Assembly (NCBI GenBank): GCA_014238945.1
Contig: JABAAB010000014.1
Span: 124,001-188,000 of the forward strand
DNA: 64,000 bases
Direction of reading: 5' to 3'
Origin: Lysobacterales bacterium
GTDB taxonomy: Bacteria > Pseudomonadota > Gammaproteobacteria > Xanthomonadales > SZUA-36
In this document: positions 9,605 to 42,513 of the stretch, one piece after another
Position numbering within the stretch: the stretch's first letter is position 1
Layout: each line of letters opens with the position of its first letter
The notes under the pieces: generated by a model
Database searches by the model: none
What the model was told of the DNA's origin: nothing
The model's input: only the letters and a program-made list of their open reading frames with translations
Program-made: the position numbers and the translations under genes

Positions 9605-9989
9605 CTAACTGTCGGTGATGGTAACCGATTGACCAAGCTTTTCCATTATCGAGCACAGCCGCTTGATAAGCTCCCGTGTGTTCCAGGATGTGGGTACAAG
9701 CTCGACCAGAGGAATCAAATGTGGCGGATTACAGGGATGAACCACGATGCAGCGATCGCGTCCCTTTATACAATCAAGAAACGTACTGGGTGGTATGGCC
9801 GAGCATGAACTGGCGAATGGGATATCCGCCGGTGCGTACCGGTCCATGTCCCTGAATCCTTTGCAGGGCGCTTTCCGCCGCACCGGGTGCCGTGTCGAAG
9901 ACATGCACATCGTAACCTGCGTGTGCAAACAGTATGGTCCATTCCCGGCCTATGACACCGGTGCCAACGATTCCTGCTTTTTCGGTCAT
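9605..9989 (-). pseudogene. Decayed 3-hydroxyacyl-CoA dehydrogenase (lambda-crystallin-like)
   Basis: Two recognisable pieces lie in different reading frames. From 9989 the chain [21 protein letters not shown] continues to a Rossmann N-terminus (GxGxxG, then [19 protein letters not shown]). A second piece in another frame reads [22 protein letters not shown] followed by HPCNPPHLIPLVELVP, the middle of the same fold with its catalytic-site HP.NP motif. About 60 residues between the pieces and the whole C-terminal domain are missing, and the junction is frameshifted. The remnant resembles L-gulonate/3-hydroxyacyl-CoA dehydrogenases of the lambda-crystallin type more than the intact carnitine dehydrogenase at 42514. 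It is not expected to make an active enzyme. Confidence 0.7.
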
Positions 9990-10118
9990 GTTCTGTCTCT
10001 TTCCATAACACAAGCGGTGGCCGGGTCTTTGCGGATCAGCTTCCATCTGCATGGCAAGATGACCAACCCGGTGTGGCAACAACAGTCACCTTTTGACGAT
10101 TCGAGTATACTCGCATCC

Positions 10119-11627: not shown

Positions 11628-12239
11628 CTAGATTACGCTGAACTCGACGCCGAATTCCTCGGCGGCATGCTGTAACCAGTGGGCGAGGTAATCCACGAAG
11701 CTCCTGCGCACCACAATTTCGAATTCGGACCCATCATCGAGCAGACCGATCAGGACACCGGTCTTTGCCAATCCACTCTGCGCACAGTGACCGGAATGGA
11801 ACACGGATGGATGAAAATCCAGTGTGCAGCCCTTGGCCAGTACATCCCGTGCATGGGGACCGTTGATCCGCAGCGCGAGTTGTCCGCCTGACAGGTCGGT
11901 TACACAGGCATGTTGACCCCGTACAGATTCCCTTAGATTCGTCACCCGGTCTTTGTCTTTTTCAAGCGAAGAGATGATCAGCCACTCGTTCGGGCCCAGC
12001 CAGTAAATCCGGTTATTACCGGTGGTCATGGTATTCGCCGCCAAGGGTAAATCCTGCTGCAGCACGCTGTTTACCGCGTCTATGAATTCCACACTGCCAG
12101 GATCACCACGCAAATTGATATGACAGAGCCCCGGCTCTATTCCGATTCTTATGCCGGGCTGTTCAGCGCAATCGGTAGCAGATGAAATTGAGCTTAAAAA
12201 CGGCTCCAGCCCATGGCTATGCAGAATGGGATCAGGCAT
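11628..12239 (-). CDS. soxG: Sarcosine oxidase, gamma subunit
   Basis: A 203-residue protein, the usual SoxG length. The central part reads RIYWLGPNEWLIIS, the SoxG/GcvT-like core, followed by VTDLSGGQLALRINGPHARDVLAKGCTLDFHPSVF. It is the smallest tetrahydrofolate-domain-like subunit of the heterotetrameric sarcosine oxidase, which demethylates sarcosine to glycine. It overlaps the end of soxA by 8 nt and is last in the operon, giving the order B-D-A-G found in many proteobacteria. Confidence 0.85.
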   Translation of the reverse strand: MPDPILHSHGLEPFLSSISSATDCAEQPGIRIGIEPGLCHINLRGDPGSVEFIDAVNSVLQQDLPLAANTMTTGNNRIYWLGPNEWLIISSLEKDKDRVTNLRESVRGQHACVTDLSGGQLALRINGPHARDVLAKGCTLDFHPSVFHSGHCAQSGLAKTGVLIGLLDDGSEFEIVVRRSFVDYLAHWLQHAAEEFGVEFSVI

Positions 12240-15234
12240 GTTGCCGCTCCCCTTTCGGGTCGTAAAATACCGGTGACACGATTTTCACCGGCACCATTGA
12301 ACCATCCGATGCGGCGGCAAACAATGTTTCGCCTTTGCGTTTACGTCCGCCGGCAACCAGCGCCAGGGCAATTGGATGACCCAGGCAGGCGCTGGCGTAA
12401 CTGGAGGTCACATGACCCAGCAGGGGAACGGGTGGCGGTGCATCCGGATTCTCAATCAACTGGGCACCCTCGGTCAGCACCGTGGTGTTGTCCGTGCTAA
12501 GCAGACCCACCAATTGCTTGCGGTCGCCACGCTTGCCATCGGGTCTTGATAATGAGCGTTTTCCAAGGTGGTCCCTGGTTTTTGACATCATCCAATGCAT
12601 CCCCAAATCGTGTGGAGAAACCGATCCATCGGTGTCCTGCCCGAGGATGACAAAGCCCTTTTCAGCACGCAGGACGTGCATCGTCTCGGTGCCATAGGGT
12701 GTGATGTCATATTCCTTGCCGGCTTCCATCAGTTTCTTCCAGATGTACAACGCATAGCCGCTGTCGACATTGACCTCAAACGCCAGTTCGCCGCTGAAAC
12801 TCACACGAAATATCTGTACTGTCACCCCGGCCAGTTCGGCCATCTGCACCGACATGAACGGGAAACTTTGCCTTTCAAGGTCAATGCTGCAACCGGCGTT
12901 TTGCAGTACACGCCGGCTGTTGGGTCCTGCAACTGCAATGGTTGAGAAATGATCCGTGACCGAGGTCAGGTGGACATCGAGTTCCGGCCACTCGGTCTGT
13001 AGCCAGATTTCCAGCCAGGCCAGTACCTGTGCTGCTCCGCCCGTGGTGGTGGTTAAATAAAACTGGTTTTCATCAAGACGTGCCATCACACCGTCATCCT
13101 TCATCATGCCATCTTCACCGAGCATGATGCCGTAGGCACAGCGACCGATTTTCATGTTCGCGACATCGTGGGTATAAATGCGCTCCAAAAAGGTCACACT
13201 GTCGGGGCCCTGAACGATAATCTTGCCCAGTGTGGATGCGTCCATGATCCCGGCTGAGCGTCGGGTGGCGAGACATTCACGTGCCACCGCTGCTTCCAGA
13301 GCCTCATCACCACGGGGAAAATACCAGGGCCGAAGCCACTGGCCCACATTCTCAAAGGGGGCATCTTTGGACAGGTGCCATTCATGCATTGCCGTCTTGC
13401 GTTCCGGGTCGTACAGATCACCCACGTGATCACCTGCGCATACACCAAAGGTGACCGGAGTATAGGCGGGTCGAAAAGTTGTTGTGCCAACCTCGGGAAT
13501 TGGCCTGTCAAGACACTCGGCGAGTGCAGCCATACCATTGATATTGCCCAGTTTTCCCTGGTCTGTACCAAAACCCAACGCCGTGTAGCGTTTGACGTGT
13601 TCCACGTTCTGGTAACCCTCCCGAACCGCCAGTCGAACATCTGCGACACTGGTGTCATTCTGGTAGTCGAGAAACTGCTTCGGACAGCGATCGGGGTCCT
13701 TTGAAGCCGGCACCCTCCATAGGGGTTGCAGGGCATTTGAGTGGAGATCATCGACGCTCGGGAGTGACAGGTCTACAGTTTCAAATCCGCTCAATACCGC
13801 GGCATCCCGACCGTTGTCATGACCGCTTTGCAGACAGCTCCGAAGTGACCAATAACCATTTCCAGCACCGGTTGAAATACAGTTCTGAACGGACTCTCCT
13901 GCTACAAAACACTGCAGATCCTCATTCCATACATTTTTTCCACCCGACTGCGAATGTAAATGCACGGCCGGGCTCCATCCACCCGAAATGGCCAGCAGGT
14001 CACAGTCCATGCTGATGGTGTGGTTGATTTGCGCACATCGATCACCATCCCATTTTGCAACCAGGACCCCGCTCACCCGCCTCCGGCCACTGACATCGGT
14101 AACCACATGATTTTGGAAAACGGCGATTCCCAGGTTCCGTACTGCCTCTCCCAGTCCCCCGGCACCATCGATACGACTGTCGACTATTGCGACCACCTCG
14201 CTACCGGCCTGGTGCAGGTCAATGGCGGTCTGATAGGCTGAATCGTTGTTGGTGAATACCACTGTCCGCTTACCGGGACAGACCGCATACCGGTTGACAT
14301 AGCTGGAAACCGCGGAAGCCAGCATGACACCGGGGCGATCGTTGTTGCAAAAGACCAGGGGTCGCTCAATGGCGCCCTGTGCCAGTACCACCTGTTTTGC
14401 CCTTACCCGCCATTGACGTTCCCTGATCTGACCAGTCAAATTTCCGCCAAGGTGGTCCGTACATCGTTGAGCGATTGCCAGGAAATTGTGATCGAAATAC
14501 CCGAATACCGTGCTTCTGGGCAACATGATCACATTTTCGAATTGCGACAGCTGGTACAGGGTATCCTGCAGCCATGACTGTGCGGATTTCCCGTCGATTG
14601 ACTCGGCACTTGACAGCAATTGTCCACCGAATTCACTTTGTTCATCCGCGATCAGGACACGGGCACCCGAGTGCGCTGCGGTGAGTGCTGCCATCAGGCC
14701 CGAGGGGCCGGCTCCGGCGACCAATACATCACAATATGCATTGCGGTGATCGTAGTGATCCGGGTCCGGTAGCCGTGGTGACCGACCCATGCCGGCCGAG
14801 CGGCGGATCAATTTTTCGTAGCTTTCCCACAGCATCCTGGGATACATAAAGGTCTTGTAGTAGAACCCGGCCGAGAATAAACGACCGAGGGAGTCATTCA
14901 CTGCTGCAATGTCATAGTTGACGTTCGGCCAGCCCTTGTTGGTTCGCGCTTCCAGACCGTCATATAACTCGACCTGGGTCGCTCTTTGATTGGGTAGCGT
15001 TGTTGCACCTGAACCGATCTGCAGGATTGCATTGGGTTCCTCCGCTCCACAGCCAACGATTCCCCGCGGGCGATGCAATTTAAAACTCCTGCCCACGATG
15101 GACACGTCATTTGCCAGTAAAGCAGATGCCAGCGTGTCACCGGCATAGCCCCGGTATTGCCTGCCGTTGAAGAAGAAATCAAGGGGCCTGGAGCGGTCTA
15201 TCCGGCCCCCTTGCTTAAGACGATTTGGCTGCAT
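12232..15234 (-). CDS. soxA: Sarcosine oxidase, alpha subunit
   Basis: A 1000-residue protein, full length for SoxA. An N-terminal Fer2-like domain without iron-sulfur Cys ligands reads FFNGRQYRGYAGDTLASALLANDV. A Rossmann NAD-binding domain follows (DVLVAGAGPSGLMAALTAAHSG, ~residue 170). The C-terminal half is a GcvT/aminomethyltransferase domain (GIMDASTLGKIIVQGPDSVTF.., then FRVSFSGELAFEVNV) that binds tetrahydrofolate. In the enzyme complex this subunit receives the iminium/methylene unit and forms 5,10-methylene-THF. It lies 6 nt after soxD. The GcvT half parallels the one in the adjacent dimethylglycine dehydrogenase, as known for these families. Confidence 0.9.
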   Translation of the reverse strand: MQPNRLKQGGRIDRSRPLDFFFNGRQYRGYAGDTLASALLANDVSIVGRSFKLHRPRGIVGCGAEEPNAILQIGSGATTLPNQRATQVELYDGLEARTNKGWPNVNYDIAAVNDSLGRLFSAGFYYKTFMYPRMLWESYEKLIRRSAGMGRSPRLPDPDHYDHRNAYCDVLVAGAGPSGLMAALTAAHSGARVLIADEQSEFGGQLLSSAESIDGKSAQSWLQDTLYQLSQFENVIMLPRSTVFGYFDHNFLAIAQRCTDHLGGNLTGQIRERQWRVRAKQVVLAQGAIERPLVFCNNDRPGVMLASAVSSYVNRYAVCPGKRTVVFTNNDSAYQTAIDLHQAGSEVVAIVDSRIDGAGGLGEAVRNLGIAVFQNHVVTDVSGRRRVSGVLVAKWDGDRCAQINHTISMDCDLLAISGGWSPAVHLHSQSGGKNVWNEDLQCFVAGESVQNCISTGAGNGYWSLRSCLQSGHDNGRDAAVLSGFETVDLSLPSVDDLHSNALQPLWRVPASKDPDRCPKQFLDYQNDTSVADVRLAVREGYQNVEHVKRYTALGFGTDQGKLGNINGMAALAECLDRPIPEVGTTTFRPAYTPVTFGVCAGDHVGDLYDPERKTAMHEWHLSKDAPFENVGQWLRPWYFPRGDEALEAAVARECLATRRSAGIMDASTLGKIIVQGPDSVTFLERIYTHDVANMKIGRCAYGIMLGEDGMMKDDGVMARLDENQFYLTTTTGGAAQVLAWLEIWLQTEWPELDVHLTSVTDHFSTIAVAGPNSRRVLQNAGCSIDLERQSFPFMSVQMAELAGVTVQIFRVSFSGELAFEVNVDSGYALYIWKKLMEAGKEYDITPYGTETMHVLRAEKGFVILGQDTDGSVSPHDLGMHWMMSKTRDHLGKRSLSRPDGKRGDRKQLVGLLSTDNTTVLTEGAQLIENPDAPPPVPLLGHVTSSYASACLGHPIALALVAGGRKRKGETLFAAASDGSMVPVKIVSPVFYDPKGERQHA

Positions 15235-15240
15235 CTTGCT

Positions 15241-15516
15241 CTAAGGCCCCTTGTCACCGGCAGGCAATTCAAAACTGCGGGAGATCCGGTAGCTGACCGT
15301 GTCACGTTCAACCCCAAACCAGCGCCGGCAGCCCTGGGCATGGTTCCACAGTTCTTTATGGGCCCCGCGTGGGTTCTTGCGCATGAACAGATAATCCGCC
15401 CACTCGACATCACTCAATGCATCTGGATCAAGAGGACGGTTGATGCCCGCCTCGCCACCGTAACTGAACTCCGTTTCGGCCCGTTCTCCACAAAAAGGAC
15501 ATTTGATCAGAAACAT
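15241..15516 (-). CDS. soxD: Sarcosine oxidase, delta subunit
   Basis: A 91-residue protein starting MFLIKCPFCGERAETEFSYG. The start at 15516, 1 nt after the soxB stop, is preferred to a longer in-frame start inside soxB because it places Cys6, Cys9, His59 and Cys63 at the positions known for the SoxD zinc site. The segment WNHAQGCRRWF near residue 57 carries the last two ligands. It is the small structural subunit of heterotetrameric sarcosine oxidase. Confidence 0.9.
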   Translation of the reverse strand: MFLIKCPFCGERAETEFSYGGEAGINRPLDPDALSDVEWADYLFMRKNPRGAHKELWNHAQGCRRWFGVERDTVSYRISRSFELPAGDKGP

Positions 15517-15517
15517 G

Positions 15518-16768
15518 TCAGTGGGCCACCCCGGCGGCGCCATGCTCGTCAATCAGGGCACCGCTGGTGAAACGATTCAGATCAAATGCCGTGTTCAGAT
15601 CGTGAGCGCGGTCCCGGGCAATGGTGTGTGCAAAGACCCAACCCGAACCCGGTGTGGCCTTGAAGCCACCGGTACCCCAGCCGCAATTGAAATACAGTCC
15701 GTCCACGGGCATCTTGCTGATAATCGGACAGGCATCCGGGCAAACATCGACAATTCCCCCCCACATCCTGAGCATCCTGACCCGGCTGAACACCGGGAAC
15801 AATTCGATGATCGCCGCCGCTGCGTGTTCGATGGTTGGAAAGCTGCCTCTTTGCCCGTAACCATTATAGGCATCAATTCCTGCACCGATGACCAGTTCAC
15901 CCTTGTCCGATTGGGAGATGTAGCCATGTACCGCATTGGACATGACAACGGTATCAAGGACCGGTTTCAGCGGTTCGGAAACAAAGGCCTGCAAGGGATG
16001 GCTTTCGATCGGAAGACGCAGTTCCGCCATTGAGGCAAGCACGCTGGCATTGCCTGCAACCACGACGCCTACCTTGTCCGCTTCAATACGGCCCCGAGTG
16101 GTTTCAACACCGGTGACACGTCTGCCATCACGCTGAATACCGGTGACTTCGCATTGCTGGATGATATCCACGCCCAGGGCATCGGCTGCCCGTGCAAAAC
16201 CCCAGGCGACCGCATCGTGTCTGGCCACCCCACCGCGTTTCTGTAACGACGCACCGAGGATCGGGTAACGCGCATTTGCGGAGGTATTGATCATCGGGAT
16301 GGCTGCTTTTATCTGCTCGGTGTTGACCACCACCGCATCCAGACCATTGAGCCGGTTGGCGCTGACACGTCTTTCAATGTCTCGCATGTCCTGCAGGCTG
16401 TGGCCGAGGTTGTAGACACCACGCTGGCTGAACATGACGTTGTAGTTCAGTTCCTGGCTCAGTCCTTCCCAGAGTTGCAACGACTTTTCATACAACAATG
16501 CCGCCTCGGTCCACAGGTAATTTGATCGCACGATGGTGGTATTGCGACCGGTGTTGCCCCCACCGATCCAGCCCTTTTCAAGCACCGCGACATTGTGTAT
16601 TCCATGCTCTTTTGCGAGGTAGTAGGCAGTCGCCAGGCCATGCCCGCCACCACCGACAATTACCACATCGTATTTGCGTTTTGGATCAGGGTTTCGCCAC
16701 GCTGGCTGCCAGTGACGGTTGTGGCCGATCGCATTGCGCAGTAACCCGAATGCCGAGTACTTTTTCAT
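15518..16768 (-). CDS. soxB: Sarcosine oxidase, beta subunit
   Basis: A 416-residue FAD/FMN subunit. An ADP-binding fold sits at residues ~34-65 ([20 protein letters not shown]). The segment [19 protein letters not shown] contains His184, equivalent to the histidine that covalently holds FMN in bacterial heterotetrameric enzymes. C-terminal [14 protein letters not shown] closes the FAD site. It catalyses oxidation of sarcosine, passing electrons to O2. The ATG overlaps the stop of the GFA gene by 4 nt, so expression is coupled to it. Confidence 0.9.
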
Positions 16769-17190
16769 TCCTTTGGGTTTATCGTTCCGTAATCGGCATG
16801 TTGTGGCAGGCCGTCATTGATGCTGTAGTAATCGGAAGCATCGGCGACGAAAATATGGGCATCGCATTTGAGCCCGGTGGGTACATCCAGGGTGCCGGCC
16901 ATGACACTGATCCACTCGCTTTGCTCGTGTTTCCAGAACAGGCTGGAGCCACAGGTCTGACAAAACCCACGTTTGACTTCGGGTGACGACCGGTACCATT
17001 TCAAGCCGTCTCCGACGGTAATTTCCAGGCGTTCAGACCGGCAGGATGTAGCGCCAAGATAATGCCCGCTGGTTTTTCTGCACTGCGCACAGTGACAGTA
17101 AATAACCCCGCTCAAGGGTCCGTCGATCACGTATTTGACGTCACCACAAAGGCAGGCGCCATTGGACTTAGTTGTTGGCATCGTTGACAT
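16765..17190 (-). CDS. GFA (glutathione-dependent formaldehyde-activating / CENP-V) domain protein
   Basis: A 141-residue zinc-binding protein with CLCGDVKY near the N-terminus, [12 protein letters not shown] (~residues 32-43) and [11 protein letters not shown] (~75-85), the Cys pattern of the GFA fold. Family members bind zinc, and some add glutathione to formaldehyde. It overlaps both neighbours: its start lies inside the end of the dimethylglycine dehydrogenase gene (23 nt) and its end overlaps the soxB start (4 nt). Sitting between two demethylases that generate one-carbon units from N-methyl groups, it may scavenge formaldehyde that escapes tetrahydrofolate capture. That role is inferred from context. 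Confidence 0.8.
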
Positions 17191-19624
17191 CCCTTAGTCG
17201 TTCATTTTTTGGGTCAAACGGGCTGTCCGGTATGACGACCGCCGGATAGGTTTTGCCCAATATATCAATTTCCAGTTCCGTACCTGGTGAAGAAAGCCCG
17301 GGTTGAACCATGCCAAGTGCCAGTGACCTGTTGACCCGAAAACCAAAACTGCCGCCGGTTGCGCGGCCTATGACCTCGCCATTCTTCAACAGGGCGTTGT
17401 TCCCCAGTGCGTCGGCGTCTGTTACCTCCCGGACCTCAAGTGTAACCAGCAGGTTGTTCTCACCAGATTCCCGTGATTCAAGCAAGGCGTCCCGACCGAT
17501 AAAATCACCTTTATCCGGCTGTATGAACCGATCCATGGCCGACTCGTACGCGGAATACTCAATGGACAGTTCCGTCCCCACCATGCGGTAGGATTTTTCA
17601 TATCTCATCGAGTCCATAGCCCGGATACCAAATGGTTTCAGACCGAGGTCTTTGCCGGCAGCAAACAGGGCATCGAAAATATGATTCTGATACTCAAGTC
17701 CGTGATGCAGTTCCCAGCCGAGTTCGCCTACATAGTTGACCCGCATTGCGGTCACCGGGGCCTGGCCAACCACGATATCCTGAGATGTGAGCCAGCGGAA
17801 TGCATCATTTGAAAAATCAGTATCGGAGACACGCGCCAATAATCGTCTGGATTTTGGTCCGGCAATGACCAACACGCCGTGACCACCGGTCATCTGCGTA
17901 AATTGAACCGTACCGTTGCCGGGCATGTGTTTTTGCAGGTAGTCGTGGTCAAGACGCTGCAGCGCACCGGCCGAGACCAGGTAAAAAGATTCGCCGGACT
18001 CCCGCATGATGGTGAATTCGGAATGAATACCACCATTCCTGTTCAACGCATGGCACAGACCAACACCCCCGATTTTCCGGGGCAGGCGGTTGGCTACGAA
18101 ACCGTCCAGGAATGCCTCGGCACCCGGGCCTGAGATACGGCACTTGGCGAATGCCGTCATATCAAGCAGACCGACATTGGTGGTGACATTTGTGATCTCT
18201 CTTCCGATCGCTTCAAACCAATTTGAACGGCGGAAAGACCAGTCGTCCTGCTGCACCATGCCATCGGTCGCAAACCAGTTGGCACGTTCCCAGCCAAACT
18301 TCTGCCCGAAAACTGCACCCATGTTTTTCAGACGCCCATAACAGGGTGCTGTGCGCAACGGCCGGGCCGCAGGCCGTTCCTCGTCGGGGTAATGAGTGAC
18401 GAATACATGTGCGTATGCTTCTTCGTTTTTCTCAATCAGGTAATCTTTTGTCGCATAGTCTCCAAAGCGTCTCGGCTCCACCCCGAGCATGTCTACGGTA
18501 GGCTCGCCGTCCACGATCCACTCTGCAAGTTGCCAGCCGGCACCACCGGCCGCCGTAATTCCAAAACTGTGTCCTTCATTCAGCCAGAAGTTATCCAGAT
18601 CCCAGGCCGGTCCTATGATCGGATTTCCATCCGGTGTGTAGGGGATCGCGCCGTTGTAAACCTGTTTCATACCCACTTCGGCGAATGCCGGTACGCGGGC
18701 CATGGCGGCTTCAATATGCGGAGCCAGGCGATCAATATCCTCCTGAAACAATTCGTACTCGGCATCAGGGTTGGGGCCATCGACATAGCAACACGGCGCA
18801 CCTTTTTCATACGGACCCAGGATGAAACCGCTATTTTCCTCACGCAGGTACCAGGAGTTGTCCGATTCACGCAGGACTGCCAATTCAGGCTCGCCACGGT
18901 CGCGGCGTCTGATCAATTCCGGGTGTGGTTCGGTAACAATAAACTGGTGTTCAACCGGGATGACGGGAATATCCAGACCCACCATTTGACCGGTTTTTCG
19001 GGCGTAATTTCCGGTGGCTGAAATGATGTGTTCACAACTGATATCACCCTGTGTCGTCTTCACCAGCCAGTTTCCTGATGATTGCTGTTCGATTGCCAGC
19101 ACCGCGGTATTTCGATAAATCGTCGCTCCACGGTTCCGCGCACCCTTTGCCAACGCCTGGGTCAGGTCCGCAGGCTGGATATAACCATCATCCGGGTGAT
19201 AAATCCCTCCGACCAGTCCGTCTGAACTGCACAACGGCCACATTTGCTTGATATCAGCTGGTGTCAGAAAACGGATGTCGATGCCAAGGGTCCGAGCGGT
19301 GGCAGCGTACTGGTAGTACTCATCCATGCGATCCTGGTTCATCGCCAGACGCAAATTGCCGACTTTTTTGAAACCGACCGGCTGACCGGTCTCCTGCTCG
19401 AGTTGCTGGTAAAACTTTACCGAATACTTGTGAATCTGGCCCACGCTGTAGCTCATGTTGAACAGTGGCAGCAAACCGGCGGCATGCCAGGTGGAACCCG
19501 AGGTCAGCTCTGCTTTTTCCAGTAAAACCACATCGTCGGCCCAGCCTTTCCTGGCCAGGTGATAGAGGGCGCTCACACCGACGACTCCACCACCGATCAC
19601 CACGACACGTGCTTCCGATTTCAT
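17168..19624 (-). CDS. Dimethylglycine dehydrogenase-type FAD/aminomethyltransferase protein
   Basis: An 818-residue two-domain flavoprotein. The N-terminal DAO domain starts VVVIGGGVVGVSALYHLARKG and has STWHAAGLL with His47, matching the covalent FAD histidine of DMGDH. It continues with VIPVEHQFIVTEPHP and NEGHSFGITAAGGAGW. The C-terminal half (from ~residue 430) is a GcvT/tetrahydrofolate domain with GLLDMTAFAKCRISGPGAEAF, MRVNYVGELGWELHH and GLKPFGIRAMDSMRYEKSYR. The expected reaction is N,N-dimethylglycine to sarcosine with transfer of the methyl carbon to THF. Sarcosine dehydrogenase has the same architecture, but a full sarcosine oxidase is encoded just downstream, which favours dimethylglycine as substrate. 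It heads the coupled run DMGDH-GFA-soxBDAG. Confidence 0.8.
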   Translation of the reverse strand: MKSEARVVVIGGGVVGVSALYHLARKGWADDVVLLEKAELTSGSTWHAAGLLPLFNMSYSVGQIHKYSVKFYQQLEQETGQPVGFKKVGNLRLAMNQDRMDEYYQYAATARTLGIDIRFLTPADIKQMWPLCSSDGLVGGIYHPDDGYIQPADLTQALAKGARNRGATIYRNTAVLAIEQQSSGNWLVKTTQGDISCEHIISATGNYARKTGQMVGLDIPVIPVEHQFIVTEPHPELIRRRDRGEPELAVLRESDNSWYLREENSGFILGPYEKGAPCCYVDGPNPDAEYELFQEDIDRLAPHIEAAMARVPAFAEVGMKQVYNGAIPYTPDGNPIIGPAWDLDNFWLNEGHSFGITAAGGAGWQLAEWIVDGEPTVDMLGVEPRRFGDYATKDYLIEKNEEAYAHVFVTHYPDEERPAARPLRTAPCYGRLKNMGAVFGQKFGWERANWFATDGMVQQDDWSFRRSNWFEAIGREITNVTTNVGLLDMTAFAKCRISGPGAEAFLDGFVANRLPRKIGGVGLCHALNRNGGIHSEFTIMRESGESFYLVSAGALQRLDHDYLQKHMPGNGTVQFTQMTGGHGVLVIAGPKSRRLLARVSDTDFSNDAFRWLTSQDIVVGQAPVTAMRVNYVGELGWELHHGLEYQNHIFDALFAAGKDLGLKPFGIRAMDSMRYEKSYRMVGTELSIEYSAYESAMDRFIQPDKGDFIGRDALLESRESGENNLLVTLEVREVTDADALGNNALLKNGEVIGRATGGSFGFRVNRSLALGMVQPGLSSPGTELEIDILGKTYPAVVIPDSPFDPKNERLRDVNDANN

Positions 19625-19724: not shown

Positions 19725-21266
19725 CTAATATTCCCGGTCGGCAAACTCTGATTTTCGCCGTAACATGAAGTCCTGTAAAGCCTCGTCAATGGAAGGATCC
19801 AGAACCGGTGGCTGGTAGTTCTCAAGCATTGATTTCCAGATTGCGTTGGCACGTTGTACCGCATCGAAGGAGCCTTCCTGTTTCCATTGCTCGAAGCTGT
19901 TGTTGTCTGCGATTTCGGAAGGACAAAATGCCGTCTCGAAGTTTGCCAGCGTGTGTTGAGCTCCCAGGAAATGGGATCCTGGTCCGACTTCGCGCAGCGC
20001 ATCCATCGCCTGGCCATTCTCGGACAGGTCAACACCACCCAGCAGTACACCCATCATATTCGCCTGGTCGGCATCCATGATGAATTTCTCATATCCCATG
20101 GTCAGACCACCTTCCAGCCATCCGGCCGTATGCAGCATAAAATTTACACCCGCCAGTGCAGCGGTCTGCAGGGTGTTGGCTGATTCGTAAGCAGCTTGCG
20201 CATCCGGAATTTTTGAGCCGCACATTCCACCACCACTGCGGAACGGAACACCGAGACGTCGCGCCAGCGCAGCGGCGGCAAAGGTGACAAAAGTTGGCTC
20301 AGGTGTACCAAAGGTTGGTGCCCCCGACTGCATGGATACCGCTGCGGCAAAGGTACCAAAAACCACCGGTGCACCTGGTTTCACCAGCTGCACATAGGCC
20401 ATTCCCGCCAGGGCTTCGGCGAGAATCTGGGTTACCGTCCCGGTCACCGTTACCGGTGACATGGCACCTGCCAGGATGAAGGGCGAAATAACCGTCGCCT
20501 GGTTGTGACGGGCATAGACAGTGGCGGCACCCAGCATGGTCGCATCGAAGGTCAACGGGGAGTTGGCATTGATCAGGCTGGTGATTACGGTGTTGTTTTC
20601 AACAAATTCATCACCGAAAACAAGCTTGGCCATATCCACACTGTCCTGGGCCCGCCCGGCGGCTGTCACCGAGCCCATGAATGGTTTGTCACTGTATTTA
20701 ATATGGCTGTAGATCATGTCGAAATGACGTTTATTCACGGGCAGGTCAACCGGTTCGCACACGGTGCCCCCGGAATGGTGCAAACCCGGACTCATATAGG
20801 CCAGTTTTACAAAATTACGGAAATCCTCAATGGTCGCGTAGCGCCGGCCCTTTTCAATGTCACGCACGAACGGTGAACCGTATGCAGGTACCAGCACGGT
20901 TCGTTTGCCTCCAATAATGACACTGCGTTCCGGATTTCTTGCATGCTGTGTGAACTCGGAAGGTGCCGTGTCGCGTATGATCGAACGGCACATACCCCGA
21001 GGGAAGCGAACCCGTTCCGAATCAATATCAGCACCTGCCGCCCGGAAAAGATCGAGTGCTTCCGGGAATTCTTTGAACTCGATGCCAATTTCCTCGAGTA
21101 CGGTATCCGCGTTGTGCTCAATCAGCTCAAGTGCTGCTTCATCCAATAATTCGTAGTAGGGGATTTTCCGGTCAATATATGCTGCCGCAACGGTGGTTGC
21201 CTGTTGCCTGACGGCGCGTTTGGCACTGCGGCCACCTCCTCTTCTGCGTCGACGTTCATTTCCCAT
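19725..21266 (-). CDS. MttB-superfamily methyltransferase without pyrrolysine (candidate betaine demethylase)
   Basis: A 513-residue trimethylamine-methyltransferase-family protein. The start MGNERRRRRGGGRSAKRAV at 21266 gives the basic N-terminus typical of aerobic proteobacterial members. Core motifs are VLEEIGIEFKEFPEAL, SVTAAGRAQDSVDMAKL, PFILAGAMSPVTVTGTVTQILAEALAG, ATVYARHNQ and SGGGMCGSKIPDAQAAYES. The frame is continuous through the region where archaeal MttB has an amber/pyrrolysine codon, so it belongs to the non-Pyl branch that includes the glycine betaine methyltransferase MtgB. Glycine betaine as substrate is inferred from the downstream dimethylglycine and sarcosine enzymes. No corrinoid protein lies next to it. 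It is 100 nt upstream of the DMGDH gene. Confidence 0.8.
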   Translation of the reverse strand: MGNERRRRRGGGRSAKRAVRQQATTVAAAYIDRKIPYYELLDEAALELIEHNADTVLEEIGIEFKEFPEALDLFRAAGADIDSERVRFPRGMCRSIIRDTAPSEFTQHARNPERSVIIGGKRTVLVPAYGSPFVRDIEKGRRYATIEDFRNFVKLAYMSPGLHHSGGTVCEPVDLPVNKRHFDMIYSHIKYSDKPFMGSVTAAGRAQDSVDMAKLVFGDEFVENNTVITSLINANSPLTFDATMLGAATVYARHNQATVISPFILAGAMSPVTVTGTVTQILAEALAGMAYVQLVKPGAPVVFGTFAAAVSMQSGAPTFGTPEPTFVTFAAAALARRLGVPFRSGGGMCGSKIPDAQAAYESANTLQTAALAGVNFMLHTAGWLEGGLTMGYEKFIMDADQANMMGVLLGGVDLSENGQAMDALREVGPGSHFLGAQHTLANFETAFCPSEIADNNSFEQWKQEGSFDAVQRANAIWKSMLENYQPPVLDPSIDEALQDFMLRRKSEFADREY

Positions 21267-21446
21267 AACCGTTCTGCACCACTCTTGCAAAGGGCTGAAT
21301 ATAATCTGTATTGCGGTCAACCCAAAAAAACCAGTATGTTCCGTAAACGGGGGTACCGCATCTACGGTTGCGACACCGGCTAGATTGGAAACGACATTCT
21401 TACATGCAGCAGAATATCTGCATCATGGATTACAACCGTAGCGATA

Positions 21447-21596: not shown

Positions 21597-22721
21597 CTAT
21601 GGGTTAATTTGAGGGTCCCTGGACAGCACACGGATCATGCTGTCCACCTCGTTGTAATCAATATAGAAACCCCGGTAGTGCCGCTCGCCGCTGGAAGGAT
21701 CAAATTCGGCCCGTCCATGCAACACACGCTGGTTATCAAACATCACCATCTGCCCCGGTTTCAAGGCATGATGAAACCGATACTTTGGATCGCGGATATA
21801 CATCATGAAGCGCTGATAGGCAGCGTAGAAATCGTAGATCAAGCCGGTTTCCAAATCAGTGACATCTGCCAGGTGTGCATTGAAAACAAGGCAATCGAAT
21901 TCACCATTGGCATGTTGATTTATTATCGGCCGGCGGTATCGGATATCGAAACTGTCGTCATGAAATCGCCAGGGCACCGCTACCCTTTTCAGTAAATCAA
22001 ACTCATCTGGCCGATCTTTTTCAAAATCTGCACATATACTGAAACCGTCTGCAAAAACGGATTCGCCCCCACTTGCATTGTTTCGGAAACTGTGCAGAAA
22101 CTGGTAGCCGGGCACCAGGTTCTGATTGGGCAGATCGGTGTGCAAAGGCAATGCAATTGACGTGTAAGCCAGGTTATTGGGATCCGGTTTGCTGATGACC
22201 TCGAACATCACTCCAAAATTCGTTTCACGTTTGAATCCGATCAATTCCGCAAAGTGTTCACCAGCACCCGCTTCGTCTTCCAGACCGTCAATGATGATCA
22301 GACCCATACGTTTTATGGTGACCAATGCTGATTGGAGTACCCGGGGAGATCGACTGCATTGCAGAGCGTCAAAGTGTGGGATGTCCGCTATCGTAGCGAC
22401 ACTCCAGTGCACCTTGGGTACCCGGCAGGGGTCAGGACGAACCACTCCCGGTCGGTGTGATCGCAACCACAAGGAGGCATACACAGAGGGACTCTGTTTG
22501 TCTTCCCAGTGCACAACCAGGGCATCATCAACCAGATCGTAGGCCGTGGGTTGTATGTCGAGAGAAACACTGGTCAGATCGAAAATCCGTTCGCGGGTAT
22601 GGGGGTGTAGCTCCGTTGGGTCATTGTCACGAAGCCATATAAACGGAAATTCCGTGACCGACTGATCGGTCCAGGTAGCGACAAAGGCGCGCCCTCGGCG
22701 TTCGATTTCCGTAATCTGCAT
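21597..22721 (-). CDS. Gamma-butyrobetaine-hydroxylase-like Fe(II)/2-oxoglutarate oxygenase
   Basis: A 374-residue protein with two domains. An N-terminal DUF971-type domain (FPFIWLRDNDPTELHPHTRERIFDL) lacks the zinc Cys cluster found in many homologues. A C-terminal TauD-type jelly-roll has LHTDLPNQNLVPGYQFLHSF (HxD iron ligands), ASGGESVFADGF and VMFDNQRVLHGRAEF (distal His) with a downstream Arg. MQITEIERRGRAF at 22721 is the chosen start. Family members hydroxylate gamma-butyrobetaine to L-carnitine, or related quaternary amines. It is a paralogue of the TmpA-like protein at 25935-27089 and is divergent from the BCCT carrier. A carnitine dehydrogenase gene at 42514 makes a gamma-butyrobetaine role plausible. 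Confidence 0.75.
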   Translation of the reverse strand: MQITEIERRGRAFVATWTDQSVTEFPFIWLRDNDPTELHPHTRERIFDLTSVSLDIQPTAYDLVDDALVVHWEDKQSPSVYASLWLRSHRPGVVRPDPCRVPKVHWSVATIADIPHFDALQCSRSPRVLQSALVTIKRMGLIIIDGLEDEAGAGEHFAELIGFKRETNFGVMFEVISKPDPNNLAYTSIALPLHTDLPNQNLVPGYQFLHSFRNNASGGESVFADGFSICADFEKDRPDEFDLLKRVAVPWRFHDDSFDIRYRRPIINQHANGEFDCLVFNAHLADVTDLETGLIYDFYAAYQRFMMYIRDPKYRFHHALKPGQMVMFDNQRVLHGRAEFDPSSGERHYRGFYIDYNEVDSMIRVLSRDPQINP

Positions 22722-22984
22722 ACCGATTGAGACTAACCAAAAACCACATACCACGCAATCATCATCCCAGCACAGTTTCCCGATCGGGCCATCATGCGGT
22801 TGGAAGTCACTATTAATATGCTGGTGATATGACAGGGTAGAGCAGGCAGCGCCGCCGCATCACACTTTCCTGAATTGCACAGTAGTGGCATGATGGGATG
22901 GATGTGTGGCGGTTAACCTGGAATCAGATTTCACGCCAACCCGGGTCTGTTAGCACCAATGATAATCAGAATGAGGACAGAAAA

Positions 22985-24523
22985 ATGAGCGCCAGCGAGG
23001 GTAAATCTACTTATCCCGAACCAACCATTGATTGGGGTACCTTTATACCAGCCTTTACGTTGATCATCGCAATCGCGTTAAGCATGATCATCTGGCCGGA
23101 TCTTGGTGCGTCACATGCCGACACGGCCATGAGTTTTGTTACCGGCAAACTCGGCTGGCTCTACCTGGCACTGGGGGTCGCTTCTCTGTTTTTCGCAGGC
23201 TGGCTGGCATTCGGGCCCTATGGTCACGTGCTCCTGGGTACCCCTGGAGAAAAGCCTGAGTATTCAGATCTGCACTGGATTGCAATGATGTTCACCGCGG
23301 GGATTGGTGGCAGCCTGATCGCCTGGGGGATTGCCGAACCCGTATTCTACGTTCAGAACCCACCTTTTGGAGTAGAGCCACACTCCGCACTGGCAATGGA
23401 GTGGGCACATCTTTACCCGCTGTTTCACTGGGGAATAACACCCTGGGCATTTTATGCCATTCCCACCGTGCCAGTTGCTTACATGCTTTTTGTCAATCGT
23501 TCACCGACAATGAAAATCAGCGATACCTGCGAAGGCGCCCTTCCTGTCAGGGGCCGCAAACCCCTGTCCAGGTTGATCGATGTGGTCATCGCACTTGGGA
23601 TTATTGGCGGGACGTCAACATCCTTCGGGTTGGGAGTGCCACTTGTCGCATCCCTGGTTGCCGAGTTATTTGGAATACCGGACCTGTTGATGACCAAGCT
23701 CCTGGTGTTGTTGGTCTGGCTGGCGCTTTTCGGTGCCAGTGCCTGGCGCGGTTTGAAGAAGGGCATCAAGGTACTTGCGGACATCAATATGGTACTGGTG
23801 GGGATTACCCTGTTGTTCATCCTGCTGGCAGGACCGACCCTTTTTATATTATCGATCAGTGTCAACAGTGCCGGAATGCTGGTTGATAATTTTGCCCGTA
23901 TGTCCACCTGGATGGATCCAATTGCAAAGTCCGGGTTTCCGGAATCGTGGACCGTTTTCTACTGGGCCTGGTGGATTGCATTCGCCGCATTTGTGGCCCT
24001 CTTCATCGGCCGCATATCAAAGGGTCGAACGATCCGGCAACTGGTGCTGGGTATCATCGGTTGGGGCACCCTGGGGACCACGACGTTTCTTGCGATCATT
24101 GGCGGTTATGCGATTTTCCTCGAATCGACAGGTCAATTACCACTGTCCGACCTGATGAATCAAACCAGCATGTCGGTGGTCACCGCCAAGGCCATCGCAC
24201 ATTTGCCCTTCGGCAATGTGGCCCTGTCCATCTTCATCATTCTCAGCGTGATTTTTTATGCGACTTCATTTGATTCGGCCTCCTACACGGTGGCCAGCGT
24301 GTGCAGCAAAAACCTGCACAATGACCAGGAACCACCAAAGGTCAGCCGGCTGGTGTGGGCCTGTGCACTCGCCTTGATGGCGATGGGTCTGATGATATCG
24401 GAAAACTACAAGATTGTGCAGGCGGCAACGGTGGTATTTTCCGTACCACTTTTACCGGTCATTGTTTTGATGTGTATTTCACTGATCAGGTGGTTACGAC
24501 GGGATTTCGGTTCCGGACCCTGA
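22985..24523 (+). CDS. BCCT-family transporter for betaine, choline or carnitine
   Basis: A 512-residue, 12-helix membrane protein. ATG at 22985 has AGGACAG upstream. The BCCT hallmarks are present: FTAGIGGSLIAWGIAEPVFYVQNPPFG, WAHLYPLFHWGITPWAFYAI, and ESWTVFYWAWWIAFAAFVALFIGRISKGRTIRQL. These carriers move quaternary ammonium compounds across the inner membrane, usually coupled to Na+ or H+. The Gly-rich TM1' segment MFTAGIGGSLIAWG fits the substrate-binding glycine stretch. It is flanked by oxygenase and demethylase genes for such compounds, which makes uptake of betaine-type substrates likely. Its 3' end converges with the PhyH gene (16 nt between stops). Confidence 0.9.
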   Translation: MSASEGKSTYPEPTIDWGTFIPAFTLIIAIALSMIIWPDLGASHADTAMSFVTGKLGWLYLALGVASLFFAGWLAFGPYGHVLLGTPGEKPEYSDLHWIAMMFTAGIGGSLIAWGIAEPVFYVQNPPFGVEPHSALAMEWAHLYPLFHWGITPWAFYAIPTVPVAYMLFVNRSPTMKISDTCEGALPVRGRKPLSRLIDVVIALGIIGGTSTSFGLGVPLVASLVAELFGIPDLLMTKLLVLLVWLALFGASAWRGLKKGIKVLADINMVLVGITLLFILLAGPTLFILSISVNSAGMLVDNFARMSTWMDPIAKSGFPESWTVFYWAWWIAFAAFVALFIGRISKGRTIRQLVLGIIGWGTLGTTTFLAIIGGYAIFLESTGQLPLSDLMNQTSMSVVTAKAIAHLPFGNVALSIFIILSVIFYATSFDSASYTVASVCSKNLHNDQEPPKVSRLVWACALALMAMGLMISENYKIVQAATVVFSVPLLPVIVLMCISLIRWLRRDFGSGP

Positions 24524-24539: not shown

Positions 24540-25340
24540 TCAGGGGGTACCGGTAATTTTCCGGTAGCGATCTTGAAGCTCTTGCTGTCTTTTTACAGCA
24601 ACCGGATCGAGATTCGACCACGCGGGAATGTTTTCGGAAAAATGATGATAGGAATCTTCACCACGTACCAGGATAGCCGTATCTGAATCATGCCTGGTCT
24701 GGCGTACGTGCGTGGCCAGGTACTGCACATTCAGTCCGATGCGCCGGTCAGTGCTCGTGTTAGGTGTTGACGAGTGCAGCGTCCAGCCGTGGTGGAATGA
24801 TGCCTGACCTGGTCGAAGCGGACACAGCACACTTTTGTCATCTGCAACACCGCGTACTGTCTGGCCCTGGAACAGCACATTGGACTCATCATTGGTCGGG
24901 TCATGGCGCAATCGACCCTGGAGGTGGCTGCCTGGCAACATTCGCATACAGCCACTTTCCTGCGTAGCAGGTGAAAGTGCCAGCCACATGGACACCTGGG
25001 CATCATCACTGAAGCCCCAGTAAGTCAGGTCCTGGTGCCAGCTTACATGGGCCTCGGAGCCCGGCTCTTTGACGATGTAGGTCACGTTGTGGAGCAGGAT
25101 ATTGGAGCCGATGAATTGTTCCACCACATCGAGTACCGCCGGCAAAGTTGCCAGTTTCCAGGGTGAGCGCAGGATGGTGTGTACCTTGGTCAGGTAATGG
25201 AGTTTGCCGAAATTTGCCTCCACGTTCTCCATTTGTTGGCGATGTTTGTCTGCGTACTGTTTGCTGATGATGTCTACGGGAGATACGTAGCCATCTGTTT
25301 CATATGACTGTTTTAAAAATTTCAGTTCATTTGGCGACAT
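24540..25340 (-). CDS. Phytanoyl-CoA dioxygenase (PhyH) family oxygenase in the TmpAB-like operon
   Basis: A 266-residue Fe(II)/2-oxoglutarate oxygenase. VSWHQDLTYWGF supplies the HxD ligands (~residues 98-100), FHHGWTLHSSTPNTSTDRRIGLNVQY the distal His and the 2-oxoglutarate Arg. ESGCMRMLPGSHLQGRLRH is the usual PhyH middle motif. Its start lies 14 nt inside the end of the HD-domain gene, so the three genes tmpA-like, tmpB-like and phyH form one operon. PhnY, which hydroxylates 2-aminoethylphosphonate before PhnZ cleavage, belongs to the same superfamily, but the alignment needed to call this PhnY was not possible. The substrate remains open. Confidence 0.75.
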   Translation of the reverse strand: MSPNELKFLKQSYETDGYVSPVDIISKQYADKHRQQMENVEANFGKLHYLTKVHTILRSPWKLATLPAVLDVVEQFIGSNILLHNVTYIVKEPGSEAHVSWHQDLTYWGFSDDAQVSMWLALSPATQESGCMRMLPGSHLQGRLRHDPTNDESNVLFQGQTVRGVADDKSVLCPLRPGQASFHHGWTLHSSTPNTSTDRRIGLNVQYLATHVRQTRHDSDTAILVRGEDSYHHFSENIPAWSNLDPVAVKRQQELQDRYRKITGTP

Positions 25341-25935
25341 TTTTCACCAGTCCCTGAACCTCGGCACGGTAGTGAGAAAAATCGGGGTGGGGTCTGTCCG
25401 GATCCTTGCCTTCGTCATCCCAGAGACGAACTTTGATACAACTGTCCAGGAACGGGGATTTTTCAAACTCCACTACCTCACCCGGTTTCATTGGACCGCC
25501 CTGGACCTTCAAGGTGTAGACCGAGGCCTGAGATAAACGGGAAAAATATGCTCTATCGGTAGCACACAGGTAGCGTTTGGCAGCCACGTGCTGGCGGATC
25601 GGCTCTGTCACCCCGGGTGGGAAATAATCCGCCAGGAAATTGGCACCTGCTTCCTCGTGGAAATTATTGGTTCCCTGCATGAGCACCGTATCGGGTATTT
25701 CATTACTGTAGTGACCGATGTCATGAAGCAGTGCGGCAACGACCAATTCTGGAGGGCCATTTGCCAATTCCGCGAACTGGGCCGCCTGTAGCATGTGCTG
25801 CGCCATGGAAACCTGTTCCCCCAGGTAGGATTCGATACCACGTCTGGTGAAAATATCGGCGATGTAGCCGACGATGTTGGTAGCATCGATCGCATTCTTG
25901 TCAAAAATTGCAGAATTCATAGCAGCATTTCCCAT
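25327..25935 (-). CDS. tmpB: HD-domain mixed-valent di-iron oxygenase of the PhnZ/TmpB type
   Basis: A 202-residue HD protein. Ligand-like residues are His47, His71-Asp72 (LLHDIGHY), His93, His116 and Asp173 (RLWDDEGK). The lid residues Tyr37 and Glu40 are in SYLGE. These sit 12-13 positions after the residues reported for PhnZ (Y24, E27, H34, H58, D59, H80, H104, D161), keeping nearly the same spacing. VYTLKVQGGPMKPGEVVEFE is also characteristic of phosphonate-operon HD proteins. PhnZ and TmpB oxidatively cleave the C-P bond of 1-hydroxy-phosphonates. TmpB turns the hydroxylated trimethylammonio-ethylphosphonate into glycine betaine and phosphate. The start overlaps the TmpA-like stop by 1 nt (TAATG). 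The symbol is by homology and operon context. Confidence 0.75.
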   Translation of the reverse strand: MGNAAMNSAIFDKNAIDATNIVGYIADIFTRRGIESYLGEQVSMAQHMLQAAQFAELANGPPELVVAALLHDIGHYSNEIPDTVLMQGTNNFHEEAGANFLADYFPPGVTEPIRQHVAAKRYLCATDRAYFSRLSQASVYTLKVQGGPMKPGEVVEFEKSPFLDSCIKVRLWDDEGKDPDRPHPDFSHYRAEVQGLVKNVAK

Positions 25936-27089
25936 TACTGTTCACCCCGTTGCAACACATACAGTGTGCTGTAAAGACCATCGAGGTCTGCATTAGCACC
26001 CTGCAGATGCCGTTTACCTTCAGCAGAAAAAGCCGTGCGTGCATGCATTACGCGGGTATTGTCAAACACGACCACCTGGCCTGGCTCCAGGTTGAAAACA
26101 ATTTTCAGGGTATCCCTTTCGATGATCTGGGCGAAATGCCGGTAGGCGGCGTAAAAAGACCTGATTTTTTCCTCTGGCAGTCTGAGGCTGGCTATGGAGC
26201 GATTGTTGTAACGTACACGAACCACATGACCCAGATCGTTTGTTTCAATTATGGGCACCCTGGAGTTCAGTTCTGCACCAGCGTCGGAAAAACGGAAGTT
26301 GATCCAGTTCTCTTCCAGGATGGTGAAATGCTCCGGGTCTTCCTGTTTCAGCAACGCAGCGGCCCGGAAACCATCTACCAGAATGGAATCACCTCCCGAG
26401 GCCGAGTTGCTCAGGCAATGCAATAATTGGATGGTGGGAACCGGGTCACGGTAGGGGTTATCGGTGTGATAGCCCAGTCCGAGGTTGCTGTAAGCCAGGT
26501 TATTGGGGTTGATCTCGGTCCTGACTTCAAACAGTTCGCCGTAGTTGGTGTTGCGGCTGAAACCGAAATGCTTGATGACATCCAGCACCTGGCCGGAATC
26601 GACTGGCACGCCGCTTAACATCGCGAAACCATAATCCGAGAAGCCTCGCAGGGCAGCTATTTTACAGTCCCGGTTGTTTGCGAACTCAGCATAATCACTG
26701 CACGGCAACCCACCAGAAAAGCTGTCGGACTGCCACAACGTCTTGGTTCTGGCGCTCCTGTCATCGAATGGGGCATTGAGACAATAGCAGTTCTGGCGCA
26801 GCCAGTTGGTGGAAAACCGGGACCTGTGGTTTTCCGGCAGGAAGGTGACTTCGAGGCCATCGTTGTCATTGTGTGAAACCCCACCAATAGACAAATCTTC
26901 GGGGATGTCGATGACATTGATCAATCTCTGGCCATTGACGGGATCACGGCTTGCCGGCATCTGGCAGTGGTCGCGCAACCACAGCGCATCCAGACGACTG
27001 GTTTTGCCGTCCGCCCATTCAATGACCAGCAGGTCCTCGCTGTGGGTGACTGATGAAATGCGTGTTGAGGCCGGAGTCGTCATTTTCAT
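25935..27089 (-). CDS. tmpA: TmpA-type Fe(II)/2-oxoglutarate oxygenase (gamma-butyrobetaine-hydroxylase family)
   Basis: A 384-residue protein from the ATG at 27089 (AGGC upstream); a longer start at 27128 is possible. The N-terminal DUF971 domain contains WLRDHCQMPASRD and later LRQNCYCLNAPFDDRS, likely zinc ligands. The TauD domain has LGYHTDNPYRDPVPTIQLLHCL (HxD), SASGGDSILVDGF and VVFDNTRVMHARTAF (distal His). TmpA hydroxylates 2-(trimethylammonio)ethylphosphonate at C1 and is easily misannotated as gamma-butyrobetaine hydroxylase. Direct coupling to a PhnZ/TmpB-type HD gene is the known signature of that pair, so TmpA is favoured here over carnitine synthesis. The assignment rests on context, since the two activities share one fold and similar motifs. 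Confidence 0.7.
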   Translation of the reverse strand: MKMTTPASTRISSVTHSEDLLVIEWADGKTSRLDALWLRDHCQMPASRDPVNGQRLINVIDIPEDLSIGGVSHNDNDGLEVTFLPENHRSRFSTNWLRQNCYCLNAPFDDRSARTKTLWQSDSFSGGLPCSDYAEFANNRDCKIAALRGFSDYGFAMLSGVPVDSGQVLDVIKHFGFSRNTNYGELFEVRTEINPNNLAYSNLGLGYHTDNPYRDPVPTIQLLHCLSNSASGGDSILVDGFRAAALLKQEDPEHFTILEENWINFRFSDAGAELNSRVPIIETNDLGHVVRVRYNNRSIASLRLPEEKIRSFYAAYRHFAQIIERDTLKIVFNLEPGQVVVFDNTRVMHARTAFSAEGKRHLQGANADLDGLYSTLYVLQRGEQ

Positions 27090-27154: not shown

Positions 27155-27180
27155 AAAAAAAAGGACGCCGGTTGGCGTCC
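27155..27180 (-). terminator. Rho-independent terminator after the TonB-dependent receptor
   Basis: GGACGCC-AACC-GGCGTCC followed by eight T residues on the minus strand, 24 nt after the receptor stop codon. This is a strong canonical terminator and separates the receptor transcript from the tmpA-like operon. Confidence 0.9.
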
Positions 27181-27204
27181 TCTTATCAACACATGTCAGT
27201 AATA

Positions 27205-41455: not shown

Positions 41456-42511
41456 ATGAGTATCAAGACAAGCTGTATTGGTGCGTTCCCGAAACCCGGC
41501 TACATCGGGGTTGGCAACTGGAGCGAAACCGAGGAGCAACCCGATGACGGGAAGGGTAGCCGTTCCTTCAGTTACGTGGCCCCCCGACCGGATTCAGATT
41601 CCAGGGAACTGCTTGATCGTGCAACCCGGGAAGCAGTCGAGGACCAACTGGCCTGTGGTGTCGACATTCCGACCGATGGGGAACAACGACGTGAGAACTA
41701 TATTCATTATCATTGTCGTCACTTCAAGGGTATCGATTTTGAAAATCTTAGCCCGAAGGTACATCGCAATGGAGCGGCTGTAGCCGATCTGCCGACGATC
41801 ATTGACAGGATTGTGCCCATGCACGGTCATTTTCTTGATCGTGACTTCACAATTGCACAGTACTATTCGGACAAACCGGTGAAAATAACCCTGCCCGGTC
41901 CGATTACCATCATGGATACCACCGCTGACGCGTTCTATGACGATGACCGGAAGCTGGCCTTTGACCTGGCCGATGCACTCAATGATGAAATCCTTGCACT
42001 GGCTGCAGCCGGCTGCCGGTATATACAGGTGGATGAACCGTTGTTCGCAAGAAATGTTGATATGGCGCTGGATTTTGGTATCGAAAGCCTGGAACGCTGT
42101 TTCCATGGTTTGCCTGATGATGTCCAGAGTGTCATGCACATGTGCTGTGGATATCCCGGGCACCTCGACGATGAGAACTACCAAAAGGCCGACCCCGACA
42201 GTTATCATCAACTGGCGCGGTCACTGGATGAATCCTGTATTGACCAGATTTCAATTGAGGACGCACACCGTCACAACGACCTGCGGCTGCTGGAGCAATT
42301 CAGGAAATCAACGGTGATACTGGGCAGTGTGGCCATAGCCGCAAGCCGGGTGGAGACGGTTGAAGAAATAACAGGCCGTTTGCACAATGCGCTGGAACAT
42401 ATTGATGCGGGTCGTCTGGTGGCAGCCCCGGATTGTGGCCTGATGATGCTGGGCCGTGATCTGGCGGTGAAAAAGCTATCCAATTTATGTGCTGCAGCAC
42501 AAGCGATGTGA
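41456..42511 (+). CDS. Short MetE-like (core methionine synthase) zinc methyltransferase
   Basis: A 351-residue protein corresponding only to the C-terminal catalytic half of MetE. TDGEQRRENYIHYH gives the substrate Glu, KITLPGPITIMDTTADAFY the barrel strand, YIQVDEPLFARN, HMCCGYP the His and Cys zinc ligands, ISIEDAHRHNDLRLLEQF, and APDCGLMML the last Cys. Start at 41456 follows GGACGGAGA. Stand-alone catalytic halves of this type are known to take methyl groups from methylcobalamin or a methyl-corrinoid and transfer them to a thiol. It ends 2 nt before the carnitine dehydrogenase gene, an unusual partner for a methionine synthase. The natural methyl donor is unknown. Confidence 0.8.
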   Translation: MSIKTSCIGAFPKPGYIGVGNWSETEEQPDDGKGSRSFSYVAPRPDSDSRELLDRATREAVEDQLACGVDIPTDGEQRRENYIHYHCRHFKGIDFENLSPKVHRNGAAVADLPTIIDRIVPMHGHFLDRDFTIAQYYSDKPVKITLPGPITIMDTTADAFYDDDRKLAFDLADALNDEILALAAAGCRYIQVDEPLFARNVDMALDFGIESLERCFHGLPDDVQSVMHMCCGYPGHLDDENYQKADPDSYHQLARSLDESCIDQISIEDAHRHNDLRLLEQFRKSTVILGSVAIAASRVETVEEITGRLHNALEHIDAGRLVAAPDCGLMMLGRDLAVKKLSNLCAAAQAM

Positions 42512-42513
42512 CA

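Follow-up and report, generated by a model that had tools for sequence, protein, structure and literature searches.

TmpA and TmpB of Leisingera caerulea, both of known structure (PDB 6NPA, 6NPB-D), are encoded by a tmp operon of two genes (PMC10574752). Their reactions have been reviewed (PMC10574752, PMC8177086), and the product of TmpB is glycine betaine (PMC10574752). TmpA binds the phosphonate through N187, N287 and R288, whereas the related gamma-butyrobetaine hydroxylase (BBOX) has two Asn only (PMC9296572). As for TmpB, its YxxE loop and metal ligand set are common to it and PhnZ (PMC8177086).

Here we describe a 64,000-nucleotide stretch of DNA (the window) from a Lysobacterales bacterium (assembly GCA_014238945.1, contig JABAAB010000014.1, positions 124,001 to 188,000), in which a preliminary description had recognised the signature of a TmpA/TmpB pair. 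With a probability of roughly 0.8, we consider that this pair would mineralise 2-(trimethylammonio)ethylphosphonate (TMAEP). The support is sequence-based (clade membership, catalytic ligands, phosphonate contacts, pairing and fusions), and from it we infer the reactions and the substrate.

Assignment of the two enzymes

The features of the locus are listed in Table 1. The two genes of the pair overlap, as had been described, by one nucleotide, exactly base 25935 being common to both.

Table 1. Features of the tmpA-tmpB locus and its neighbourhood, and fused homologues in other loci
Feature	Position	Strand	Details or basis
tmpA-type Fe(II)/2-oxoglutarate (2OG) oxygenase, predicted 2-trimethylaminoethylphosphonate hydroxylase	25935..27089	-	384 aa, ATG at 27089
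tmpB-type HD mixed-valent diiron oxygenase, predicted C-P bond cleavage	25327..25935	-	202 aa
PhyH-family Fe(II)/2OG oxygenase, third operon gene, putative	24540..25340	-	Pfam PF05721
Terminator-like hairpin between TonB-receptor gene and tmpA	27159..27184	-	11-pair stem with T tail; consensus match only
BCCT-family transporter, candidate quaternary ammonium importer	22898..24523	+	PF02028, TIGR00842
Second GBBH/TmpA-family oxygenase paralogue, not TmpA	21597..22721	-	Tree, residues
MttB-superfamily corrinoid-dependent methyltransferase, candidate glycine betaine demethylase	19725..21320	-	phmmer
Dimethylglycine dehydrogenase-type FAD/folate enzyme	17168..19624	-	phmmer 5L46, 627 bits
Sarcosine oxidase beta subunit SoxB	15518..16768	-	TIGR01373, 718 bits
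Sarcosine oxidase delta subunit SoxD	15241..15552	-	PF04267, 125 bits
Sarcosine oxidase alpha subunit SoxA	12232..15234	-	TIGR01372, 1405 bits
Sarcosine oxidase gamma subunit SoxG	11628..12239	-	TIGR01375, 120.7 bits, below its cut-off
In-frame TmpA-TmpB fusions (other loci)	L010 8900-10567; L012 8900-10570; L013 8900-10567; L014 8528-10594; L021 junction near 9964-10001		

Judged by its sequence, the first gene encodes a TmpA-type oxygenase and not a gamma-butyrobetaine hydroxylase. In phmmer searches it matched TmpA (6NPB) with 326 bits (about 46% identity) and human BBOX with 188 bits. The TmpA rows, including the window oxygenase, formed one clade (support 100/99) apart from the BBOX enzymes, and a tree forcing the window protein together with BBOX-type enzymes was rejected by the AU test (p-AU 3.7e-69). 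The alignment identifies His208, Asp210 and His349 as Fe ligands and Arg360 as the 2OG residue. Comparison of the phosphonate-contacting residues, a check proposed earlier, found the TmpA contacts kept: Asn197, Asn296 and Arg297 correspond to N187, N287 and R288, while in BBOX an Ala takes the place of the Arg. None of the 36 other TmpAs lacks the equivalent of Arg297; that of Asn296 is replaced by Ala in three of them.

It would be most improbable, in view of these data, for the oxygenase to be a true gamma-butyrobetaine hydroxylase of carnitine metabolism with an unrelated hydrolase as its chance neighbour, an identity that we rejected on clade, AU test and the absence of Arg297 from BBOX. 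It does pass the gamma-butyrobetaine model TIGR02409 (437.1 bits, cut-off 414.75), slightly below its score with the NCBIfam TmpA equivalog NF049936 (439.5 bits, cut-off 400), and a carnitine 3-dehydrogenase-like gene (42487-43542) and the BCCT transporter gene would also suit such a role. However, TIGR02409 is passed by the TmpA of Phyllobacterium (417.0 bits) and of Marinobacter (433.2 bits) as well, and since other TmpAs pass or nearly pass it, this match does not discriminate. The partner, moreover, is a TmpB-type protein with the full diiron set, and the pair is conserved and even fused elsewhere (see below).

The second gene is classified as encoding a TmpB-type HD diiron oxygenase, the protein scoring highest, among those with solved structures, against Leisingera TmpB (6NPA, 191 bits by phmmer) and lower against PhnZ (116 bits). 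Every ligand named in the preliminary description is in place, Tyr37, Glu40, His47, His71-Asp72, His93, His116 and Asp173 aligning with Y24, E27, H34, H58-D59, H80, H104 and D161 of PhnZ, and across 43 relatives these positions vary little or not at all; compared with both PhnZ and Leisingera TmpB, no diiron ligand is lost and the YxxE loop is retained. The protein belongs to a clade of eight rows (support 92/93) that includes the TmpB of Marinobacter, Kiloniella, Phyllobacterium and Leisingera and lies apart from PhnZ, but the deeper separation of TmpB from PhnZ, once actinobacterial rows are included, is weak (57/17). An oxygenase among the true BBOX enzymes, or an HD protein outside the PhnZ/TmpB clade, had been named as the outcomes that would speak against the TmpA/TmpB reading; our trees showed neither, and that reading held up, with the oxygenase inside the TmpA clade, the HD protein beside characterised TmpB and the pairing conserved.

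The best model for the HD protein was the NCBIfam TmpB model NF049941, with a score (254.8 bits) below the cut-off of 300, a curated value that is a naming threshold and not a biochemical definition. A gammaproteobacterial relative adjacent to tmpA (locus L005) also falls short of it (247.6 bits), and for this branch the cut-off looks too stringent. The score with the Phn-HD model (192 bits) is likewise below its cut-off (214.6), so that the protein would receive a generic HD name. The earlier statement that the pair is hidden by annotation is consequently half true today: it applies to the HD protein, but a TmpA model exists and fits the oxygenase. A related plasmid pair has been deposited as 'gamma-butyrobetaine dioxygenase' and 'HD domain-containing protein'.

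Pairing and fusion across genomes

TmpA-like and TmpB-like genes are adjacent in 36 of 43 loci, from Gammaproteobacteria, Alphaproteobacteria and Actinomycetota, a pairing far beyond chance. In five actinobacterial loci (four Streptomyces and one Streptosporangiaceae) both lie in one reading frame with no stop in between (Table 1), and we found no earlier account of such an actinobacterial fusion in the literature searched. Adjacency and fusions together are strong sequence evidence for a shared pathway.

The HD protein also carries Met directly after its first ligand His (His47). Of the 36 loci with tmpA next door, 35 have this Met, as against none of six that lack such a neighbour (Fisher p 1.3e-6; 43 loci, a seventh locus without a tmpA neighbour, L024, being left out as it ends at a contig edge), an association that is indicative, because the rows are related. 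Alphaproteobacterial tmpAB pairs, in place of phyH, are accompanied by a LysR gene and in some cases by a gene of the phosphodiesterase/alkaline phosphatase superfamily, the latter as third gene of the operon (L034 8582-9427; L007 10643-11476), which may release TMAEP from esters.

The substrate pocket of TmpA

Two residues set the window TmpA apart. At the position of Asn366, Tyr is found in all 36 other TmpAs as well as in Leisingera TmpA and human BBOX. Tyr207, the residue preceding the Fe-ligand His, is likewise peculiar to it among the 37 TmpAs compared; the substrate pocket is therefore not identical. Of the aromatic cage, the three main residues are retained (Tyr183, Phe187 and Tyr200), Asn366 taking the place of a fourth, neighbouring Tyr. 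In the bacterial enzyme psBBOX the matching Tyr is not one of the three cage residues but adjoins them, its probable role being a hydrogen bond to an Asp (PMC4736438). The Asn could conceivably stem from a single-base change or a sequencing error. An AlphaFold model had a mean pLDDT of 67.9, the score falling below 50 in two stretches (residues 193-215 and 293-301), and because confidence is low there we draw no pocket geometry around Asn366 and Tyr207 from it. In fold comparisons of this model TmpA came first (Z 25.5), followed by BBOX (23.4) and DfmD (19.9), with an rmsd of about 23 Å over about 330 residues, a high value that probably reflects misplaced domains in the model.

Because of these two residues, the pair might be a TmpAB that has turned to a different aminophosphonate, N-alkylated or altered in some other way (e.g. 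dimethyl-AEP), with PhyH adding a step. The third oxygenase gene of the operon would fit this, but the three retained cage residues, a possible base-level origin of Asn366 and the possibility that Asn takes over the probable hydrogen bond of psBBOX make us regard it as quite unlikely. Against a TmpA/TmpB pair that mineralises TMAEP count the same residues, the TmpB score under the NCBIfam cut-off and the carnitine 3-dehydrogenase-like gene 15 kb away, which would fit carnitine metabolism.

The three-gene operon

The phyH gene overlaps tmpB by 14 nt, and the hairpin upstream of tmpA suggests that tmpA-tmpB-phyH may form a transcript of its own. The same gene order occurs in one other genome (G590, locus L064); the PhyH proteins of the two trios do not form a clade. 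PhyH was thus rejected as a fixed partner of tmpAB, given a single further locus and a tree that does not join both. Nevertheless, a PhyH relative is present in three of five other genomes with TmpB, against an expectation of 0.1 (class-wide sample; p 7e-5 by genome, 0.002 by genus), although PhyH relatives mostly occur without tmpB. The closest of them (54%; L061 3864-4655, minus strand) is clustered with genes for a polyamine-type ABC transporter, a glutamine-synthetase-like protein and an Fe-alcohol dehydrogenase, in a genome whose tmpAB pair lies on a different contig (L096). Among solved structures, PDB 6ZYK is nearest to the window PhyH.

The 14-nt overlap raises another reading, in which PhyH and the HD protein would process 2-AEP or methylphosphonate in the manner of PhnY and PhnZ, leaving TmpA a secondary role. 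The PhnY enzymes, too, belong to the 2OG oxygenases (PMC10574752), and PhyH does match the NCBIfam methylphosphonate PhnY model, but with 34 bits against a cut-off of 500, on which we discarded PhyH as a PhnY. As the HD protein is TmpB-type rather than PhnZ-type and most PhyH relatives lack a tmpB, we hold this reading to be very improbable.

Betaine-degradation neighbourhood and proposed pathway

In the TMAEP pathway that we propose, TmpA would use Fe(II), 2-oxoglutarate and O2 to hydroxylate TMAEP at C1, yielding (R)-1-hydroxy-TMAEP, and TmpB, with its mixed-valent diiron site and O2, would cleave the C-P bond to give phosphate and glycine betaine. As glycine betaine is the product of TmpB, the neighbouring genes offer a plausible route onward to glycine, in which the MttB-type methyltransferase, dimethylglycine dehydrogenase and SoxBDAG would act; TMAEP could therefore supply P, N and C. 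PhyH probably contributes a further oxygenase reaction, with a related amine or a related phosphonate as its substrate, which is a guess.

The MttB-type protein matched the glycine betaine methyltransferase 9YCE with 436 bits and 4YYC with 767 bits. In the same genome a second MttB-like gene adjoins a corrinoid-protein match (L070 8029-10471; 173 bits, below cut-off), which makes corrinoid methyl transfer possible. Genes resembling those for dimethylglycine dehydrogenase and MttB also lie near tmpAB in two other loci (L094 and L110).

The oxygenase paralogue of the window has Ala and His at the phosphonate positions Asn287/Arg288, and Phe, Ala and His at key positions. Its closest relatives (45-48%) are on Jannaschia and Rhizobium plasmids, and the formaldehyde-detoxification genes beside the Rhizobium one might point to an oxygenase that removes N-methyl groups. 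The carnitine 3-dehydrogenase-like protein (351 aa, plus strand) lacks the C-terminal part of the 495-aa carnitine 3-dehydrogenase model (530.8 bits, cut-off 592).

A further possibility combines the operon with the pocket: a TmpA-TmpB-PhyH operon with an altered TmpA pocket would degrade some other phosphonate in place of TMAEP, or else a derivative of TMAEP that PhyH opens, and, tied to complete betaine degradation, would feed P, N and C. We judge this unlikely.

Distribution

Among 299 genomes of the order, only two have a TmpB/PhnZ-like gene, and the one other than the window's (L004) has no adjacent TmpA. No close PhyH was found in the order's genomes except the window's own. In the window's genome, PhnJ (C-P lyase) was not found and no phosphonatase scored above cut-off. 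The tmpAB pair looks like a rare, possibly acquired trait in this order. If our reading is true, oxidative TMAEP breakdown extends to a gammaproteobacterium whose order almost lacks such genes, and, to judge from the arrangement of the genes, TMAEP may be more than a source of phosphate. Two leads open to testing are the in-frame fusions and the recurrent PhyH partner.

Comparison with known systems

The enzymes are those of a known pathway; the local operon and its neighbourhood are the additions. Leisingera caerulea TmpA/TmpB resembles the window pair in both enzymes, their catalytic residues, the phosphonate-binding trio and the pairing, while the window differs in Asn366 and Tyr207, the added phyH, the neighbouring betaine-degradation genes and the BCCT transporter. 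Human BBOX1 has the fold, Fe/2OG residues and aromatic cage positions of the window TmpA, but it lacks the phosphonate-binding Arg and belongs to another clade. PhnY*/PhnZ (2-AEP) and Gimesia PhnY/PhnZ (methylphosphonate) likewise place an HD diiron oxygenase with a YxxE loop after a 2OG hydroxylase; in the window, by contrast, the hydroxylase is a GBBH-like TmpA and the HD protein is nearer TmpB, with Met following the first ligand His where PhnZ-type rows have Ser, Gly or Ala. Finally, PhoF, a fungal PhnY-PhnZ fusion (PMC10574752), joins a hydroxylase to an HD oxygenase as the actinobacterial TmpA-TmpB fusions do, but with another hydroxylase type and substrate, and the window pair itself is unfused.
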